A stretch of DNA of 64,000 nt from a virus, in IMG/VR virus record IMGVR_UViG_3300030107_007542, positions 30,967 through 94,966 of that record. The stretch is one strand, 5' to 3'. Within the stretch, counting starts at the first letter, position 1. Each line of letters opens with the position of its first letter. Positions 1-6,687 of this stretch are shown one piece after another. Position numbers and translations under genes: made by a program. A model generated the notes under the pieces. That model was not told the DNA's origin, made no database searches, and saw nothing but the letters and a program-made list of their open reading frames with translations.

Positions 1-1658
1 CCTTTGGCAAACCGGCCAGTTGCGGCGTCTCGGAAACGGCCGGAACGGGGATCGAACCACGGGCCTTTAGCCGAGCGAGCCATTGCACCACCGCCGGCTT
101 TGAGGCCAGCGGGGATTTTCGAAAGTGCATATGTGCCCAGGAGGCTACCGAGAACAACAAGCGCTTGATCCCTGCCAGGGAGGTCCTGGAACCAGTCGAG
201 CAATTTGCGCATGTGCTTTGCGACAATATCAACAGCGTTCTTAATCTTCTCCAACCAAGGCATCCAATTAAGGGCCATGCTCTCCACAAGGCTAAGCATC
301 TTTTCTTGAATATCTTGTCCCCGAGAAACGCGTGCGTCGAGGCGTGCCTTCTTCATACGCTCCAACTTCTGTTGTTCTGTCTCTCCACCCCCAAATAGCT
401 TTCGAGCTTGCTCCACGCCAACACCCATACTGGCAGCAATCATCTTTTGTTCATACTTGCCCATATCCTTGAAGTTCTTGCCAGCCTGTTTCATGGATCG
501 CTGCAGGATTTCAACCCTCTCTTCCTCCGACGCGTTCAGCATGTCGATAGAATTGAGATATGGGCCGCCCATAATGGCGTTTAACTTACCAACTGCTCGA
601 CCGGCGCCCTCAAATGTATCAAACTGTTCCACGAGGCCCAATAATTCATCCATGGAAAGGCCGGTCGCCTTGGCTTGTTTCGACAACTTCTTGAAAACGC
701 CCATTACGTTGGTGCCATAGAAAGCCAATTTTTTGGAAACGGTGGCAAAATTCTGCATGACCTTATCAAAGGGCTCATTCAAGCCGGCTGCAACGCCTCC
801 CACATCACGCAGCACCCCTTCCACCTGACCGAAGCCATATCCGAGGCTCCGAGTGGCTTCAGTTGCAATCTCGGCCTGGAGTTGGGCCGAAACTCCAAGC
901 TCCTGGAACTTGGCAACAGTTTGAGTTAATGATGCGCGCTGGGCGTTGCTGGCTTTAGTAAAATCAACAAACCCGCTGTAGAGTGAGCCGTACGCTTGCG
1001 CAACCTCATCTGCTCGAATACCAGTTCCGCGTAACGCATAGGAAAGACCAACGACTTCATTCTCAAACTGGCGCGCAGCGCCGGTGGCCTTCACAAACGA
1101 GGCGCGGGCTTTGTCCATATTGACTGCCATCATAACTGAGGCTTCGATCACCTTCGTCATGAATGAAATAAGAAGTTTAAATGGGTTTAAGAGCCCCGCC
1201 AGGCCCTTACCAAAAGCCTTCCAGCCATCGGTGGTACCCAACAGCTTCTTAGTGAAGGTGCCCAAATTGCCACTGATCCCCATAAGGGTGTTGGCAAAAG
1301 CTTCGCCGTCTTTATTTAATTCTTCCAGAGCCCTTTCATGCTCCTGAATGGACTTAACGGCCTTTTCCTCTTCCTCAGTTTTGAGCTTGAGAAACTTAAT
1401 CTGGTCGCGAAGAGTTAAAAGATGCTTTTTTTGATCTTCATCGAGATCATTGCTTCTTTCCTGCTGTCTCTCAAGAAGTCTTTCTTCTTTTTCAAGTTTG
1501 GCGATTAGATCTTGTTTTGACTCAATAGCCTTTTTATAATGGGCAGTTTGCTTATCTTCCATTTCGGCCATAAGATCTTTGGCCTGCTGTAACAGCTTAA
1601 TCTTTTGCTGAAGCTCTGGGCTGCTAGGTAATACTTGATGTTCGGGTTTATCGGCCAT
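1..1658 (-). CDS. Tail tape measure protein, N-terminal part (runs off left edge)
   Basis: The frame is open from an ATG at 1658 to the left edge, giving 552 residues with no stop, so the C-terminus lies outside the window. Residues 10-120 are rich in Lys, Glu, Gln and Leu in a coiled-coil pattern. The following part is alanine- and glycine-rich with hydrophobic helices, including a segment near residue 510 with the text VVLGSLLGTYALSKIP. A repeated motif, SGRFRDAATGRFAK, sits at the visible end and is of a kind often seen in phage tape measure proteins. Known tape measures set tail length inside the tail tube and contact the baseplate. Position supports the call: it follows sheath, tube and the gp26-family gene, as in many myophages. 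The assignment rests on order, coiled coil and size, not on a catalytic motif. It could be a different long tail or baseplate-hub protein, but tape measure is the simplest reading. Confidence 0.8.
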   Translation of the reverse strand, partial: MADKPEHQVLPSSPELQQKIKLLQQAKDLMAEMEDKQTAHYKKAIESKQDLIAKLEKEERLLERQQERSNDLDEDQKKHLLTLRDQIKFLKLKTEEEEKAVKSIQEHERALEELNKDGEAFANTLMGISGNLGTFTKKLLGTTDGWKAFGKGLAGLLNPFKLLISFMTKVIEASVMMAVNMDKARASFVKATGAARQFENEVVGLSYALRGTGIRADEVAQAYGSLYSGFVDFTKASNAQRASLTQTVAKFQELGVSAQLQAEIATEATRSLGYGFGQVEGVLRDVGGVAAGLNEPFDKVMQNFATVSKKLAFYGTNVMGVFKKLSKQAKATGLSMDELLGLVEQFDTFEGAGRAVGKLNAIMGGPYLNSIDMLNASEEERVEILQRSMKQAGKNFKDMGKYEQKMIAASMGVGVEQARKLFGGGETEQQKLERMKKARLDARVSRGQDIQEKMLSLVESMALNWMPWLEKIKNAVDIVAKHMRKLLDWFQDLPGRDQALVVLGSLLGTYALSKIPAGLKAGGGAMARSAKGPWFDPRSGRFRDAATGRFAK

Positions 1659-2027: not shown

Positions 2028-2057
2028 AAAAGCCGCGCATTATTTGCTACGGCTTTT
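2028..2057 (-). terminator. Hairpin with U-run overlapping the end of the frameshifted frame
   Basis: On the coding strand AAAAGCCG pairs with CGGCTTTT across a 14-base loop, and the 3' arm ends in four Ts. It overlaps the stop codon of the 2040-2249 frame and precedes the CTATTTA element, the same order as at 9068-9097 and 14154-14185. The long loop makes it a weak terminator or attenuator. Confidence 0.45.
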
Positions 2058-2249
2058 CTTTGAGTTGTTTTCTGACTCTTTAGCCTGGTCTTCGAACTCT
2101 TTAACTAGTCGGTCAAGAAACCATCGTCTTAATTGAACCGGAAGATTGTATAATTCAAAAAAAGACCATCCACCGTGATGTTTTAAAACGAAGAATTCTT
2201 CATAAATGTGACGTTGGTACTCACTCGTCAGGCCAAAAAAAGTCGGCCG
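2040..2249 (-). CDS. gp26-family C-terminal extension reached by +1/-2 frameshift
   Basis: This frame is open from after a TAA at 2252-2250 to a TAA at 2042-2040, up to 69 residues. It contains no ATG, GTG or TTG codon, so it has no normal start. From 2222 it encodes a compact helical domain, EYQRHIYEEFFVLKHHGGWS followed by FFELYNLPVQLRRWFL and a charged Lys/Ser/Asn tail, 60 residues in all. It overlaps the last codons of the gp26-family gene, whose frame is one base different and which contains TTTTTTT at the overlap. A +1 or -2 shift there would join residue 282 of that protein to Gly-Leu-Thr-Ser and then this domain, giving a product of about 346 aa. Phage tail-assembly chaperones of the G/GT type are made by such shifts between tail tube and tape measure genes, the same position as here. 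That the shift occurs is inference; initiation at a rare CTG or ATT codon is the alternative. Confidence 0.7.
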   Translation of the reverse strand, partial: RPTFFGLTSEYQRHIYEEFFVLKHHGGWSFFELYNLPVQLRRWFLDRLVKEFEDQAKESENNSKKSRSK

Positions 2250-3081
2250 TTAAGGGCACTGGAATCCTCCCATCATGATCACACTCAGGGCATGTAAAGT
2301 CCTGATTAAGATCAACATTTGGCATCACTGCTTCATATGCCGCGCGGATTTCACGAGAGGCTCGTGTAGGACAAGCATCAATAAACTGAGAAATCAGAGA
2401 GCTTTCCGTACGACCATCTACGGCCGTAATAATAAGTCTCAACTGATCTGTAACATTGCTATCCGGAAGCTTGAGCTTCTTCTTTTTGTCCTTCTTTTCT
2501 GTCCAACGCTGCTCGTCAGCACCCGTTAACAACTTAAGTTGTACCGCAAAGTCAATTGAGTCAAGTGTAACGTTAAAAGTGCCGTTTTCATTTAGAGACA
2601 CATTTGTCGGAAGAGTTGCGTGATCCACAAGTTCTAACTCATCGAGGCGAAAAGAGTGGTCAACCGTCTGTCCACATGCAGGACATCCAATCTGCGTCCC
2701 ATAGTGGGGGCCAAAGCCAGTAATTCGAGACGCGACGATGAGTGCGTTCTTATCCCCAATTAACAAGTCGGTCACCTTGACCTCAGGATCAACCAAAACC
2801 GACTGAAGCATGCGATCCACCGCGAGGCCTCGACGTAAAAGTGCCTCAGATGTAAGGATATCCTCTTCTTTGGCTGTCATGTGTCGGATTTCCACCACTT
2901 CTGCCTGATGCAGAGGATGACTTTCCCCATAAAACTGCCCCTTACTGGGGAGTTCCACAAACTCAGTTGGAGTTACAAAGGAGAACTCAGAGGTCCCACC
3001 CTGAGTAGGTGCCGGACTACCTTGATCCGGCACGACTGGCTTGGCGCCGAGCGCTCGTTCCAGGTTATTTCGTTGTGACAT
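2221..3081 (-). CDS. gp26: T4 gp26-family baseplate/tail-assembly protein
   Basis: This 286-residue protein has features of the T4 base plate protein family (gp26 type). A Pro/Ser/Gly-rich N-terminal arm of about 35 residues is followed by the block TPTEFVELPSKGQFY (residues 37-51) and then MTAKEEDILTSEALLRRG (68-85). LLIGDKNALIVASRITGFG spans 106-124. Two cysteine pairs, CPAC at 133-136 and CPEC at 264-267, could form a zinc ribbon. T4 gp26 is needed for baseplate hub assembly, and its gene lies near the tape measure gene 29. Here the gene lies between tube and tape measure. AGGTGATGA just before the ATG at 3081 serves as ribosome site. The 3' end contains seven Ts and overlaps a start-less frame, so part of the product is probably extended by frameshifting. 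It may work as a tape-measure chaperone rather than a structural hub part. Confidence 0.8.
   Translation of the reverse strand: MSQRNNLERALGAKPVVPDQGSPAPTQGGTSEFSFVTPTEFVELPSKGQFYGESHPLHQAEVVEIRHMTAKEEDILTSEALLRRGLAVDRMLQSVLVDPEVKVTDLLIGDKNALIVASRITGFGPHYGTQIGCPACGQTVDHSFRLDELELVDHATLPTNVSLNENGTFNVTLDSIDFAVQLKLLTGADEQRWTEKKDKKKKLKLPDSNVTDQLRLIITAVDGRTESSLISQFIDACPTRASREIRAAYEAVMPNVDLNQDFTCPECDHDGRIPVPLTADFFWPDE
2235..2241 (-). promoter_or_regulatory. Candidate programmed frameshift site (T7 run)
   Basis: The coding strand reads GCC GAC TTT TTT TGG CCT GAC GAG TGA in the gp26 frame. A Phe tRNA on TTT can re-pair perfectly one base forward or two bases back within the seven Ts. Both moves enter the frame that encodes the GGWSFFELYNLP domain. 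A -1 shift would instead meet TGA after two codons, so +1 or -2 is required. Confidence 0.6.
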
Positions 3082-3103: not shown

Positions 3104-3664
3104 TTAGGCGCCCCCGTAGCTTCCTTGCGCAACGGCGCCCTTCTTACTTTCATATGCTGCCCAATCATACCGCATTCCGATCTCAATATTAAGTAATTCG
3201 TCACCAGCATAATCTAAGTCGCCAAAACTAGCCGACTTAATAAAGGCATTTTTGAGGGTCCACACCCCAACTTCATTGCCGTCACCGTCCAGTTCAGCAA
3301 TCTTCACCTCACCCAGTGCATCCAGGCTGTCTTCCTTGTTCACAGTACCGGGGCGGTTCTGAATAGCCTCGCCCTGGACATTGGGGAAGAGATAACCCGA
3401 CTGCTGGAGGGCTTCCAGAAGCAGGTTTTGTCCGTCGGGATCAATCGAGTTAACGATGGTGCAAGTCACCTCATTCCAAGTAACAGAACCGGGGTAATAA
3501 TAGGTATTCCCCAAAAACCGGTGCTCGGTCTCAGAAACCTCAAAACCAGGCTTTGTAAAAGACTTGGCCAGATAGGGCACAAACCCATTTTGTCCTAAAT
3601 CCATGTAAACCAAAAATCTATGTTGTCTTTTTGGCTCAGATGCTGCGTCGTTCCAAAATGCCAT
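3104..3664 (-). CDS. gp19: Tail tube protein (T4 gp19-like)
   Basis: The 186-residue product matches the T4 tail tube type in size (gp19 is 163 aa) and in features. It begins with a short polar arm, then HRFLVYMDLGQNGFVPYLAK (residues 16-35), then KPGFEVSETEHRFLGNTYYY, the typical strand pattern around the tube-forming beta barrel. The C-terminal half has KNAFIKSASFGDLDYAGDEL, the stretch that in tube proteins leads to the last strands. It polymerises into the inner tube through which DNA passes. It directly follows the sheath gene, the usual order in T4-like and other contractile tails. TAGGAGAC lies eight bases before the ATG at 3664. Confidence 0.92.
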   Translation of the reverse strand: MAFWNDAASEPKRQHRFLVYMDLGQNGFVPYLAKSFTKPGFEVSETEHRFLGNTYYYPGSVTWNEVTCTIVNSIDPDGQNLLLEALQQSGYLFPNVQGEAIQNRPGTVNKEDSLDALGEVKIAELDGDGNEVGVWTLKNAFIKSASFGDLDYAGDELLNIEIGMRYDWAAYESKKGAVAQGSYGGA

Positions 3665-3732: not shown

Positions 3733-6687
3733 TTAGTCATCGAAGGAAGCGCCCGTACGAGTGATGTTGAAATCGATAGCGATAAACTCAATTGCGCGAG
3801 TCGGCTTCAAGAAAATCTGTGCATACATAATGTTTCGATCCACAAGGTCCGGTGTCGTGGTGGTCTCGTCAAGCACCACCTTGAACTCACTCAGGCCAAA
3901 TCGGGTCTGGATGCTAGCCAAGAAGGGGTTAACCTTACTGAGGAAGCGGTTCCAAGTTACCTTCACATTGGGATCAAAGAGAAGCTGAGCGGCAATCTGC
4001 GAGATGCGCTTCTTCACAAAGATCATGAGTCGTCGAACGTTAATGCGATCCAGTGCCGACTGAGTTACCTGGAGGGTCTTCTGTCCGAAGATCACAATTC
4101 CTTCAGCAGGGAACTTAGCAATCGGATTAATATTGGCCGCGTACAGGTCATCTCGATCGAGGCGTCGCAGCTGATGCGAAACATCCACAACCGGGATACC
4201 AGCAGCACCCTCAGTCAGGCCACCGCGGTTGAAGCCGGCGGGGGCGAACCACACATCCGTCTTACGCTGTGAGCTTGAGAAAGTACCAATTGCAGCAATA
4301 GAGGGCGGGAGCCACACAAAGCTACCATTAATGGTGTCTCGCGAGCGGACCCAAGGATAGAAAGCACAACCGTACGAGGAGTTAATAGCTCGATCGCGCA
4401 GGTTGTTAATCACTGTCTTGAGGCTGCTAGCCGTGTTATTTCGGGCTACTGCTGTGCCGTCCTCTCGGGGCTGGAATCCACCCTTAAGATCGATCACCGC
4501 CAGAGCATCGGCACGGTCCTCACAAATCCCCATCAAGTGAGTTGTGAGGCCTTCATGTGTAAGTCCAGGCATTGAGGCGAGGTTCATTTCGACGACCTCT
4601 GGATCGGTTAGGGAGTCCATTGCGCGCTTAATCGACGCGAAGCTATAGCTCTTCTGGCCATTAATATCTGTAATGCCGTTCAAAAGACGACTGTTGAATG
4701 GATCCATCTCTTGAATGTCAAGTCCGTCGAATCCACCATACAGTGGCACGGTAAATCGGTCAAAGCCCTGATCCAGGACTCCGGAAATTGCACCATACTC
4801 ATTAGTAAGAGACGTACCGGCTGCATGCGAGCCCGAAAGCCACTTAACCATGCCCTTAGACCCGCTTGACGAGCCACTAAGGTCATCGAGCGTAAAATAC
4901 ATTGAGAGTTCGCGTACGTTGGTGGATGCGCCGGCAAACATATTGCCAACTATACCGCCGCGGGCCATCAACAGGTCAATTGTTGAGTCCTCGAAAGCGA
5001 CGCCACCGGTTGTCCGGGTGGTTTGCATTCCGAAGTAAGCATCCGTAGGATTGGCAAGGTTACCAGATCCTGCGCAAACGCGGAATTCGGGTGCAGGGTA
5101 AAGGACAGAAGCCGTGAGGTGCGATCCACTCACCACCAACACCGACTGGCCCTGGGCCTGGGTCATGTTGTTGAACACGGTACTAGCGGTGGCGAGGGAG
5201 CCAGTAAACCTACCGCGTGCAACGGTTGTTCCACTCACCCAGTTTGCCGAAAGCGAACCAGTACCAATAACTGTTGCATCTGCATACTTGACAATGCCCT
5301 TAAATCCAAATGGAAGGATTGTTGCATCAACTGCATAGTTTTCAACGTTGCTGGCCATTGCCACTCGAATATAATCGGAGCGATTATCGTAATTACCGGC
5401 AAGTCGATAGCGGCGCTCGGCTGCAACCCAAACTCGGTTCTTATCGCCAATGAGGCGCGCAACATAATTCAAGGAATCCGGGTTCAGACTGCAGTTTTCA
5501 AACTGCTCCACAATCTTGACCACATTATCACTATCATCGAGCTTACGAACGACCACACTGAAGGTACCATACGCGTCGGACTCGTTACTAGACGCCTTAA
5601 TATCCTGAATAGAGATCTTAAGGTTCTTGTTTGTCCAGGACCCGGGTTCGCCCAAAGCATGAACTGTAAACAGGGCCGGCAGCTGTTCAATGTCAAAGCC
5701 ATTGCTGCTGCCGTTTCCGCGAGCAACTGTATCGCAACCAATGATTTGGGGCGTTTGAGCGGCCTGAAGGGGGTCCTCATGGTCTCGCCCAGCAAGGGTA
5801 TTGGTGAGGCTGTACAGAGGAACAATTGCACCCCAGGTGGTACTTGCTGTGATGTTAGCCTTAATATGACGATCAAAGGTCTCACCCAACCAATAGTTAT
5901 CAACCAGTTCAGTGACTGTGCTATTGGTCTTTTGGGGGTTTGTATTGAAGACTTTACGGATATACTTGGAGTCAGCGCGATTAAAGTTACACGAAGATGT
6001 TAGAGCCTGAGAGCCAGAGGCATTTGAAATAACTACCTTAAACTCATAAGGAACGCCTGTGTCTTTAACGATCAGAGACGACGCGCAGGAATTGTGCCCA
6101 GAAGAAGCCGCGGTCGCTCCCTTCGTGCTGAGCATTGCACCCGAAAGCATCAGGTTAGTTGTGGCATCTGTTGTATAGAAAATCGCTCCGAGGGCGCCCT
6201 GCATGGAACCGGTGCCGCCATCTGTATAACTGCCGCTAGCGCCGGCCGGGCCCTTCCAGGCAGAACCACTTGCATACTGGGGCTCAAAAATTACGAGGCC
6301 CCAGGCCTTTCCAGCGGATGTCGCTCTCCAGCCGGCTTCTCCGCCGGCGGCGAGGTTGCCTTCGGCTTCGGTGCCGAGGAGACGAACATAAGTAAGAGGG
6401 GAGCTGTTTTTAAGATAAGCTTGTGCCGCATACGCACCATAAGTGGCAGCAGTAGTGTTCGCGCCGTTGCGCCACACATCTGAGCCTCCACGGCCCGGGG
6501 AAGGGGCACCGAAAACATTAACAAATTCTTCGAACGAATTAACTGTTACGGGCCGCAATGCAGGGCCCTTTTCGGCTCGCCCGATAATAACGGGGCCAAT
6601 TCCAGCAGGGGATGCAGGAATTTGGGAGCTATCGATCTCATCGACAAAAACCCCCGGTGAAACAAATCTAAAGTTTTTAACTGACAT
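3733..6687 (-). CDS. gp18: Contractile tail sheath protein (T4 gp18-like), enlarged
   Basis: The protein is 984 residues, much longer than T4 gp18 (659 aa). The N-terminus is typical for sheath proteins: FRFVSPGVFVDEIDSSQIP then GPVIIGRAEKGPALRPVTVN, with SFEEFVNVFGAP shortly after. The C-terminal 250 residues also match the family, with AAIGTFSSSQRKTDVWFAPA, then GQKTLQVTQSALDRINVRRL and a closing strand IEFIAIDFNITRTG. These ends form the inner, conserved domain that contacts the tube. The extra length lies in the middle (roughly residues 130-650), rich in Ser, Gly, Ala and Thr, and probably forms added surface domains. It sits just before the tube gene. AGGAGAG lies nine bases before the ATG at 6687. 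Confidence in function is high; the role of the insertion is unknown. Confidence 0.95.
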   Translation of the reverse strand: MSVKNFRFVSPGVFVDEIDSSQIPASPAGIGPVIIGRAEKGPALRPVTVNSFEEFVNVFGAPSPGRGGSDVWRNGANTTAATYGAYAAQAYLKNSSPLTYVRLLGTEAEGNLAAGGEAGWRATSAGKAWGLVIFEPQYASGSAWKGPAGASGSYTDGGTGSMQGALGAIFYTTDATTNLMLSGAMLSTKGATAASSGHNSCASSLIVKDTGVPYEFKVVISNASGSQALTSSCNFNRADSKYIRKVFNTNPQKTNSTVTELVDNYWLGETFDRHIKANITASTTWGAIVPLYSLTNTLAGRDHEDPLQAAQTPQIIGCDTVARGNGSSNGFDIEQLPALFTVHALGEPGSWTNKNLKISIQDIKASSNESDAYGTFSVVVRKLDDSDNVVKIVEQFENCSLNPDSLNYVARLIGDKNRVWVAAERRYRLAGNYDNRSDYIRVAMASNVENYAVDATILPFGFKGIVKYADATVIGTGSLSANWVSGTTVARGRFTGSLATASTVFNNMTQAQGQSVLVVSGSHLTASVLYPAPEFRVCAGSGNLANPTDAYFGMQTTRTTGGVAFEDSTIDLLMARGGIVGNMFAGASTNVRELSMYFTLDDLSGSSSGSKGMVKWLSGSHAAGTSLTNEYGAISGVLDQGFDRFTVPLYGGFDGLDIQEMDPFNSRLLNGITDINGQKSYSFASIKRAMDSLTDPEVVEMNLASMPGLTHEGLTTHLMGICEDRADALAVIDLKGGFQPREDGTAVARNNTASSLKTVINNLRDRAINSSYGCAFYPWVRSRDTINGSFVWLPPSIAAIGTFSSSQRKTDVWFAPAGFNRGGLTEGAAGIPVVDVSHQLRRLDRDDLYAANINPIAKFPAEGIVIFGQKTLQVTQSALDRINVRRLMIFVKKRISQIAAQLLFDPNVKVTWNRFLSKVNPFLASIQTRFGLSEFKVVLDETTTTPDLVDRNIMYAQIFLKPTRAIEFIAIDFNITRTGASFDD

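Follow-up and report, generated by a model that had tools for sequence, protein, structure and literature searches.

Analysis of a 64,000-nucleotide stretch of viral DNA, referred to below as the window and part of a 193,778-base virus record, indicates that a gp26-family gene and a reading frame without a start codon at its 3′ end very probably constitute one gene for a tail assembly chaperone (TAC) pair, TAC-N and TAC-NC, joined by a +1 frameshift. The genes of the region lie on the minus strand, in the order sheath (3733-6687, assigned by size and place), tail tube (gp19-like, 3104..3664; PHROG 4542, E 6e-24), gp26-family gene (2221..3081), start-less frame, a 118-aa ORF (1670-2026, with a possible ATG at 1993) and the tail length tape measure gene (3..1658, running off the window; PHROG 58, E 7e-13). 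For the 118-aa ORF, no family match was obtained. The gp26-family gene follows the tail tube gene and precedes the tape measure gene, the place expected of a TAC gene and the one given in the preliminary description, and the PHROG matches of both neighbours bear this out. Only one PF12322 gene was found in the whole genome record, so there is no sign of a second gene in the style of T4.

The gp26-family gene (Pfam PF12322, T4_baseplate) starts at ATG 3081 and encodes in frame 0 the proposed short chaperone TAC-N of 286 aa. Its 3′ end reads ACG GCC GAC TTT TTT TGG CCT GAC GAG TGA, and the frame-0 stop TGA lies closely 3′ of the slip codon in the seven-T slip site TTT TTT_T(GG) (2235..2241). In the +1 frame, a TAA at 2252-2250, directly upstream, limits the entry point, and no ATG, GTG or TTG follows until the TAA at 2042-2040. 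The preliminary description had proposed such a start-less frame overlapping the last codons of the gp26-family gene at seven Ts, with the upstream TAA and a joined product of 346 aa; inspection of the frames and translation with the shift gave the same result (TAC-NC, 2043..3081, +1 at 2235). Its statement that a -1 shift would stop at once is also correct, as this shift reads TTG GCC TGA. The frame had been placed at 2040-2249, where it is indeed present and start-less, but the conserved part of the extension starts only at Gly283 (2234), and the real extent of the C-terminal extension (TAC-C) is thus 2043..2234 (64 aa, GLTSEYQRHIYEEFFVLKHHGGWSFFELYNLPVQLRRWFL...).

Relatives were collected from two IMG/VR scans, ten contigs of metagenome-assembled genomes (MAGs) and phage records. 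The 3′ end is visible in 171 gp26-family loci. Three of these run into a contig end, up to or near which their +1 frame remains open; in all of the other 168 the +1 frame and its protein are kept, although the IMG/VR loci partly overlap and relatedness means that these are not 168 independent events. Flavobacterium phage immuto (L081) and Microcystis phage Mel-JY01 (L082), both isolates, are among them. A separate scan seeded with the small frame gave the same picture. Homopolymer runs are prone to errors, and errors of sequencing or assembly, or decay of the gene, might have been suspected; an identical layout in 168 loci from many metagenomes and isolate genomes, with both frames conserved, has already refuted that explanation. 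Judged by these sequences, the start-less +1 frame is no artefact. A tail module of this phage type is also present in a bacterial MAG chromosome (L180, WOR-3, 2.8 Mb), where it would represent either a prophage or mis-binning.

The point at which one frame gives way to the other was located using 125 representatives (<88% identical), which were chosen to contain the site motif and are thus no test of the site itself. The open length after the site was 45-97 codons (median 65) in the +1 frame, against a median of 1 in the -1 frame and 4 in frame 0. Entropy at frame-0 codon positions 1-3 was 1.25, 0.97 and 1.70 bits upstream of the T run, as for frame-0 coding, and 1.53, 0.91 and 0.63 bits downstream, as for +1 coding. 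The position of highest entropy moves from frame-0 position 3 (1.70) to frame-0 position 1 (1.53), which is position 3 of the +1 frame; evidently, the pattern of variability among codon positions is displaced at the T run, by exactly one base. Frame-0 protein conservation ends with Trp-Pro and +1 conservation begins with Gly-Leu, which also places the hand-over at the T run. The second Phe in frame 0 is encoded by TTT in 43/43 representatives, versus 78% elsewhere in the gene, and the Pro by CCT in 43/43, versus 23%. The sequences themselves show that the frames are joined, at which site and in the +1 direction, and that this layout is deeply conserved.

The same alignments bear on whether the small frame might be a separate gene, translated by re-initiation or from a non-AUG start after the frame-0 stop. 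Start codons in the +1 frame are absent or scattered, with none before the conserved YEE motif in 52/67 representatives, and CTG as an alternative start is also not kept (TGGCCTA/G/C and TGGACTC variants). In 39/67 representatives, the nearest stop that precedes the slip site in the +1 frame is 9 nt away from it, at the same place as the TAA of the window, and +1 conservation starts exactly where frame-0 conservation ends, which an internal start would not demand. Normal overlapping starts do occur in distant systems: in the huge phage LR756511 (L087), a distant relative with a different solution, the small domain starts at an ATG that overlaps the stop of the gp26-family gene (TAATG), and the bacterial system L354 possibly has such a start as well (TGATG). 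The preliminary description had held that such a homologue would refute the frameshift; it shows an alternative mode of expression and does not refute the shift in this clade. In the alignment that had been suggested as a check, the T run and overlap are conserved while starts are missing. With no start conserved in this clade, a separate gene is improbable, and a +1 frameshift is by far the preferred reading.

The motif TT[T/C]TTTTGGCCT is present in 155/168 loci, as TTTTTTTGGCCT in 148 and as TTCTTTTGGCCT in 7. Among the other 13, five have CTT_T (TTTCTTTGGCCT in L081, L292, L307, L337 and L340), six have seven Ts (T7) or TTCTTTT followed by a changed codon (L278, L294, L312, L324, L329 and L344), and L187 and L086 have TTTTTTTTCCCT and TTTCTATTCCCT, respectively. 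In nearly all loci, YUU forms the second codon of the run and has a U after it. T7 itself occurs in 115/125 representatives and may be long enough for some slippage of RNA polymerase, by which some mRNAs would be one U shorter and give the long form by normal translation. However, relatives with TTCTTTT (a run of 4) or TTTCTTT (a run of 3) keep the +1 layout, and runs of this length are normally too short to support such slippage, which makes this source of the long form very improbable. The preliminary description had allowed either a +1 or a -2 ribosomal shift, the latter of the Mu type, leading to the same frame and feasible on T7. Only the former holds up: the +1 layout persists in relatives with TTC TTT_T and TTT CTT_T, which cannot re-pair at -2, so that a -2 shift is to be excluded with hardly any doubt and the predicted direction is +1. 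The canonical -1 heptamer X_XXY_YYZ does not apply either, the extension being in the +1 frame in 168/168 loci.

The likely mechanism is P-site +1 slippage on YUU_U with UGG in the A site. Most ribosomes would end at TGA 2223-2221 and produce the gp26-family protein TAC-N (286 aa). A minority would slip by +1 with tRNA-Phe on the P-site UUU and the Trp codon UGG waiting in the A site, the tRNA moving from 2238-2236 to 2237-2235 and re-pairing from UUU_UGG to U_UUU_GGC, and would produce TAC-NC (346 aa) with the 64-aa three-helix extension. As far as sequence can tell, the long form is made by joining a downstream frame that has no start of its own. If the pair works like lambda G/GT, TAC-N would coat the tape measure protein, and tail tube subunits would be recruited by the extension. 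The shift in cells, its efficiency and the chaperone function are inferred.

The slip site of the E. coli RF2 +1 frameshift is CUU_UGA. The sites found here resemble it in that a P-site YUU slips to UUU, with re-pairing at +1 possible on TTT_T or, in five loci, on CTT_T, and some relatives carry exactly CUU_U. They differ from it in having the sense codon UGG in the A site, not a stop codon, and in lacking an upstream Shine-Dalgarno sequence; a Shine-Dalgarno-like 4-mer in -14..-1 was absent in 113/125 representatives. Most known bacterial +1 sites have a stop codon, and that UGG does not fit this pattern counts against the proposed mechanism. It also counts against it that no conserved stimulator was found among Shine-Dalgarno-like 4-mers and RNA structures, conserved RNA structure being without support (consensus -4.1 kcal/mol, one compensatory pair, window z -1.1). 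A GGCC/GGCC palindrome around the T run of the window was rejected as a candidate, since it is not shared in full by most aligned relatives.

The gp26-family protein of the window matches Pfam PF12322 (E 8e-14) and the baseplate hub family PHROG 150 (E 1e-15). The TAC-N part and the extension were folded separately using AlphaFold2. In BFVD, the TAC-N model (pLDDT 88) matched proteins of the baseplate hub from SP-15 and from T4-like phages, and the extension was predicted to form three helices (pLDDT 93). Foldseek comparison of the extension with viral models gave nothing significant; for TAC-N against the PDB, the HK97 tail assembly chaperone 2OB9 came first with E 1.3, which is not significant and was not used as evidence. 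Matches of the small frame to iSTAND and other Pfam families were weak and shared by few members, and were discarded.

Residues 1-201 of T4 gp51 match PF12322 (E 4e-52), and PHROG 150 is matched by T4 gp26 at positions 14-235 and by T4 gp51 at positions 13-280; T4 gp51 thus has a C-terminal domain in addition to the gp26-like one. One family, PHROG 634 ('baseplate hub assembly catalyst'), has matches in T4 gp51 as well as in the start-less frame of cyanophages. Using hhalign, the window extension and T4 gp51 were each aligned with the gp51-like domain of cyanophages, at a probability of 89% (P 2.5e-6) for the extension and of 96% (P 1.7e-9) for T4 gp51; aligned directly with each other, the two gave no significant result, and the link goes through the cyanophage intermediate. 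By this route the window extension appears related to the C-terminal domain of T4 gp51. Gene order, together with the composition of T4 gp51 as gp26 plus a related C-terminal domain, makes the assignment of the gp26 family as G/GT-type tape measure chaperones, put forward in the preliminary description and already published, well supported.

In Kyanoviridae (S-CAM8 and 80 IMG/VR loci), the same protein pair is found at the same place, with a T run at the junction and a start-less small frame. However, gp26 and the gp51-like frame are joined there by -1 at T_TTT_TTC in 80/80 IMG/VR loci, with AGT TTT TTC or TCT TTT TTC at the junction, versus +1 at TTT_TTT_T here; one junction is thus used in two directions. 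The baseplate hub chaperones gp26 and gp51 of T4, for which the roles of TAC-N and TAC-NC have been proposed, likewise comprise the gp26-family domain alone and with a C-terminal domain, within the hub/tape measure module, but they are encoded by two full genes on opposite strands, in contrast to one recoded gene and one PF12322 copy here. T4 genes 26 and 51 are reportedly named in the abstract of the 2022 study by Vladimirov and colleagues. According to papers that cite it (PMC10885494, PRFect; PMC12846349, the Adele paper), Vladimirov, Gautam and Davidson (Virology 2022, 566:9-15) identified the TACs of T4-like phages, among them cases with T-rich -1 sites and cases with separate genes for the short and the long form. 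In phage AM101, gp26 and gp51 are already annotated as 'tape measure protein assembly chaperone'. The TAC-N/TAC-NC pairs of Vandenendeviridae and Andersonviridae also have a T-rich site at the end of TAC-N and an extension not annotated within the gene, but with -1 at GTTTTT (PMC12846349) and not +1. Lambda G/GT and SPP1 17.5/17.5* (-1 at UUUUUUC; PMC6316719) share with the window the place before the tape measure gene and a short form with a frameshift-extended long form; they differ in the -1 direction, and no sequence similarity to the window proteins is shown.

Several other phages have a small frame at this place. In Serratia phage Kevin (L092) and Pseudomonas phage Cygsa01 (L093), a gp51-like small frame is in -1 at GTTTTC or ATTTTC, and Cygsa01 has an overlapping ATG too (TAATG). 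Bacillus phage SP-15 (L085), Listeria phage LIS04 (L084) and Streptococcus phage GXN1 (L083) have a +1 open frame of related place and size after the gp26-family gene; their shared junction is NCC_CGA, not a T run, possibly a different +1 site, and these frames mostly lack an annotation or are annotated only from an internal ATG onwards. In the deposited annotations of phage immuto (3833-3943 of L081) and SP-15 (3809-3928 of L085), the frameshift extension is replaced by nothing more than short ORFs that start at internal ATGs.

The extension also matches Pfam DUF6760, a domain of unknown function, in 68/95 cases at E<=0.1, although these matches are weak (best 6.6e-5); that of the window scored 14.6 bits, below the gathering cut-off of 27. 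DUF6760 was not found in five MAGs holding relatives, and the search was extended to the phyla of three MAGs holding relatives. In the bacterial contractile system L352, PF12322 (2e-9) and DUF6760 (1e-6) are matched in one ordinary ORF directly after a gp19 tube gene, and the arrangement in L359 is similar, again with one ORF. Two bacterial genomes, L351 and L360, have the DUF6760 frame 3′ of a short gp26-like gene, in -1 (on GGGGG) and start-less at the junction, which reads CGGGGGAA or TGGGGGAA; further upstream, start codons are present in the DUF6760 frame of L360. These gp26-like genes encode about 123 aa and are placed in PF12322 by position and motif only, a Pfam search with that of L351 giving no PF12322 match. 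The DUF6760 frame is likewise in -1 in L353, and in L354 in -1 with an overlapping ATG. Taken together, we consider it rather likely that recoding at this homologous junction of T4-type contractile tails has changed direction between lineages, with +1 at YUU_UGG here, -1 at T_TTT_TTC in cyanophages and, in some contractile systems of bacteria, apparently -1 on GGGGG. On the same reading, a second gene would take the place of recoding in T4, and an in-frame fusion would do so in further bacterial systems; DUF6760 would be the C-terminal domain of the tail chaperone in the contractile injection systems of bacteria.

Pairs of a short and a long protein encoded by one gene in this way have been described in many phages. 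That gp26 and gp51 of T4-like phages are TACs, with frameshifting in related groups, is already known from Vladimirov et al. (2022), as cited in later papers. What is new is the +1 direction in a large clade and the evidence that DUF6760 is the same C-terminal domain. No description of the +1 site of this clade was found in the literature, with Vladimirov et al. (2022) considered through citing papers. For hundreds of phage genomes in which the extension is missing or mis-annotated, the analysis supplies the complete tail chaperone, and it provides a candidate function for DUF6760. It also adds, in phages that infect marine and other bacteria, a natural, deeply conserved +1 site (YUU_UGG) that has neither a Shine-Dalgarno sequence nor a stop codon. 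With the +1 set described here and the matched -1 set of cyanophages, the choice of direction by the ribosome on a near-identical T run becomes directly testable.
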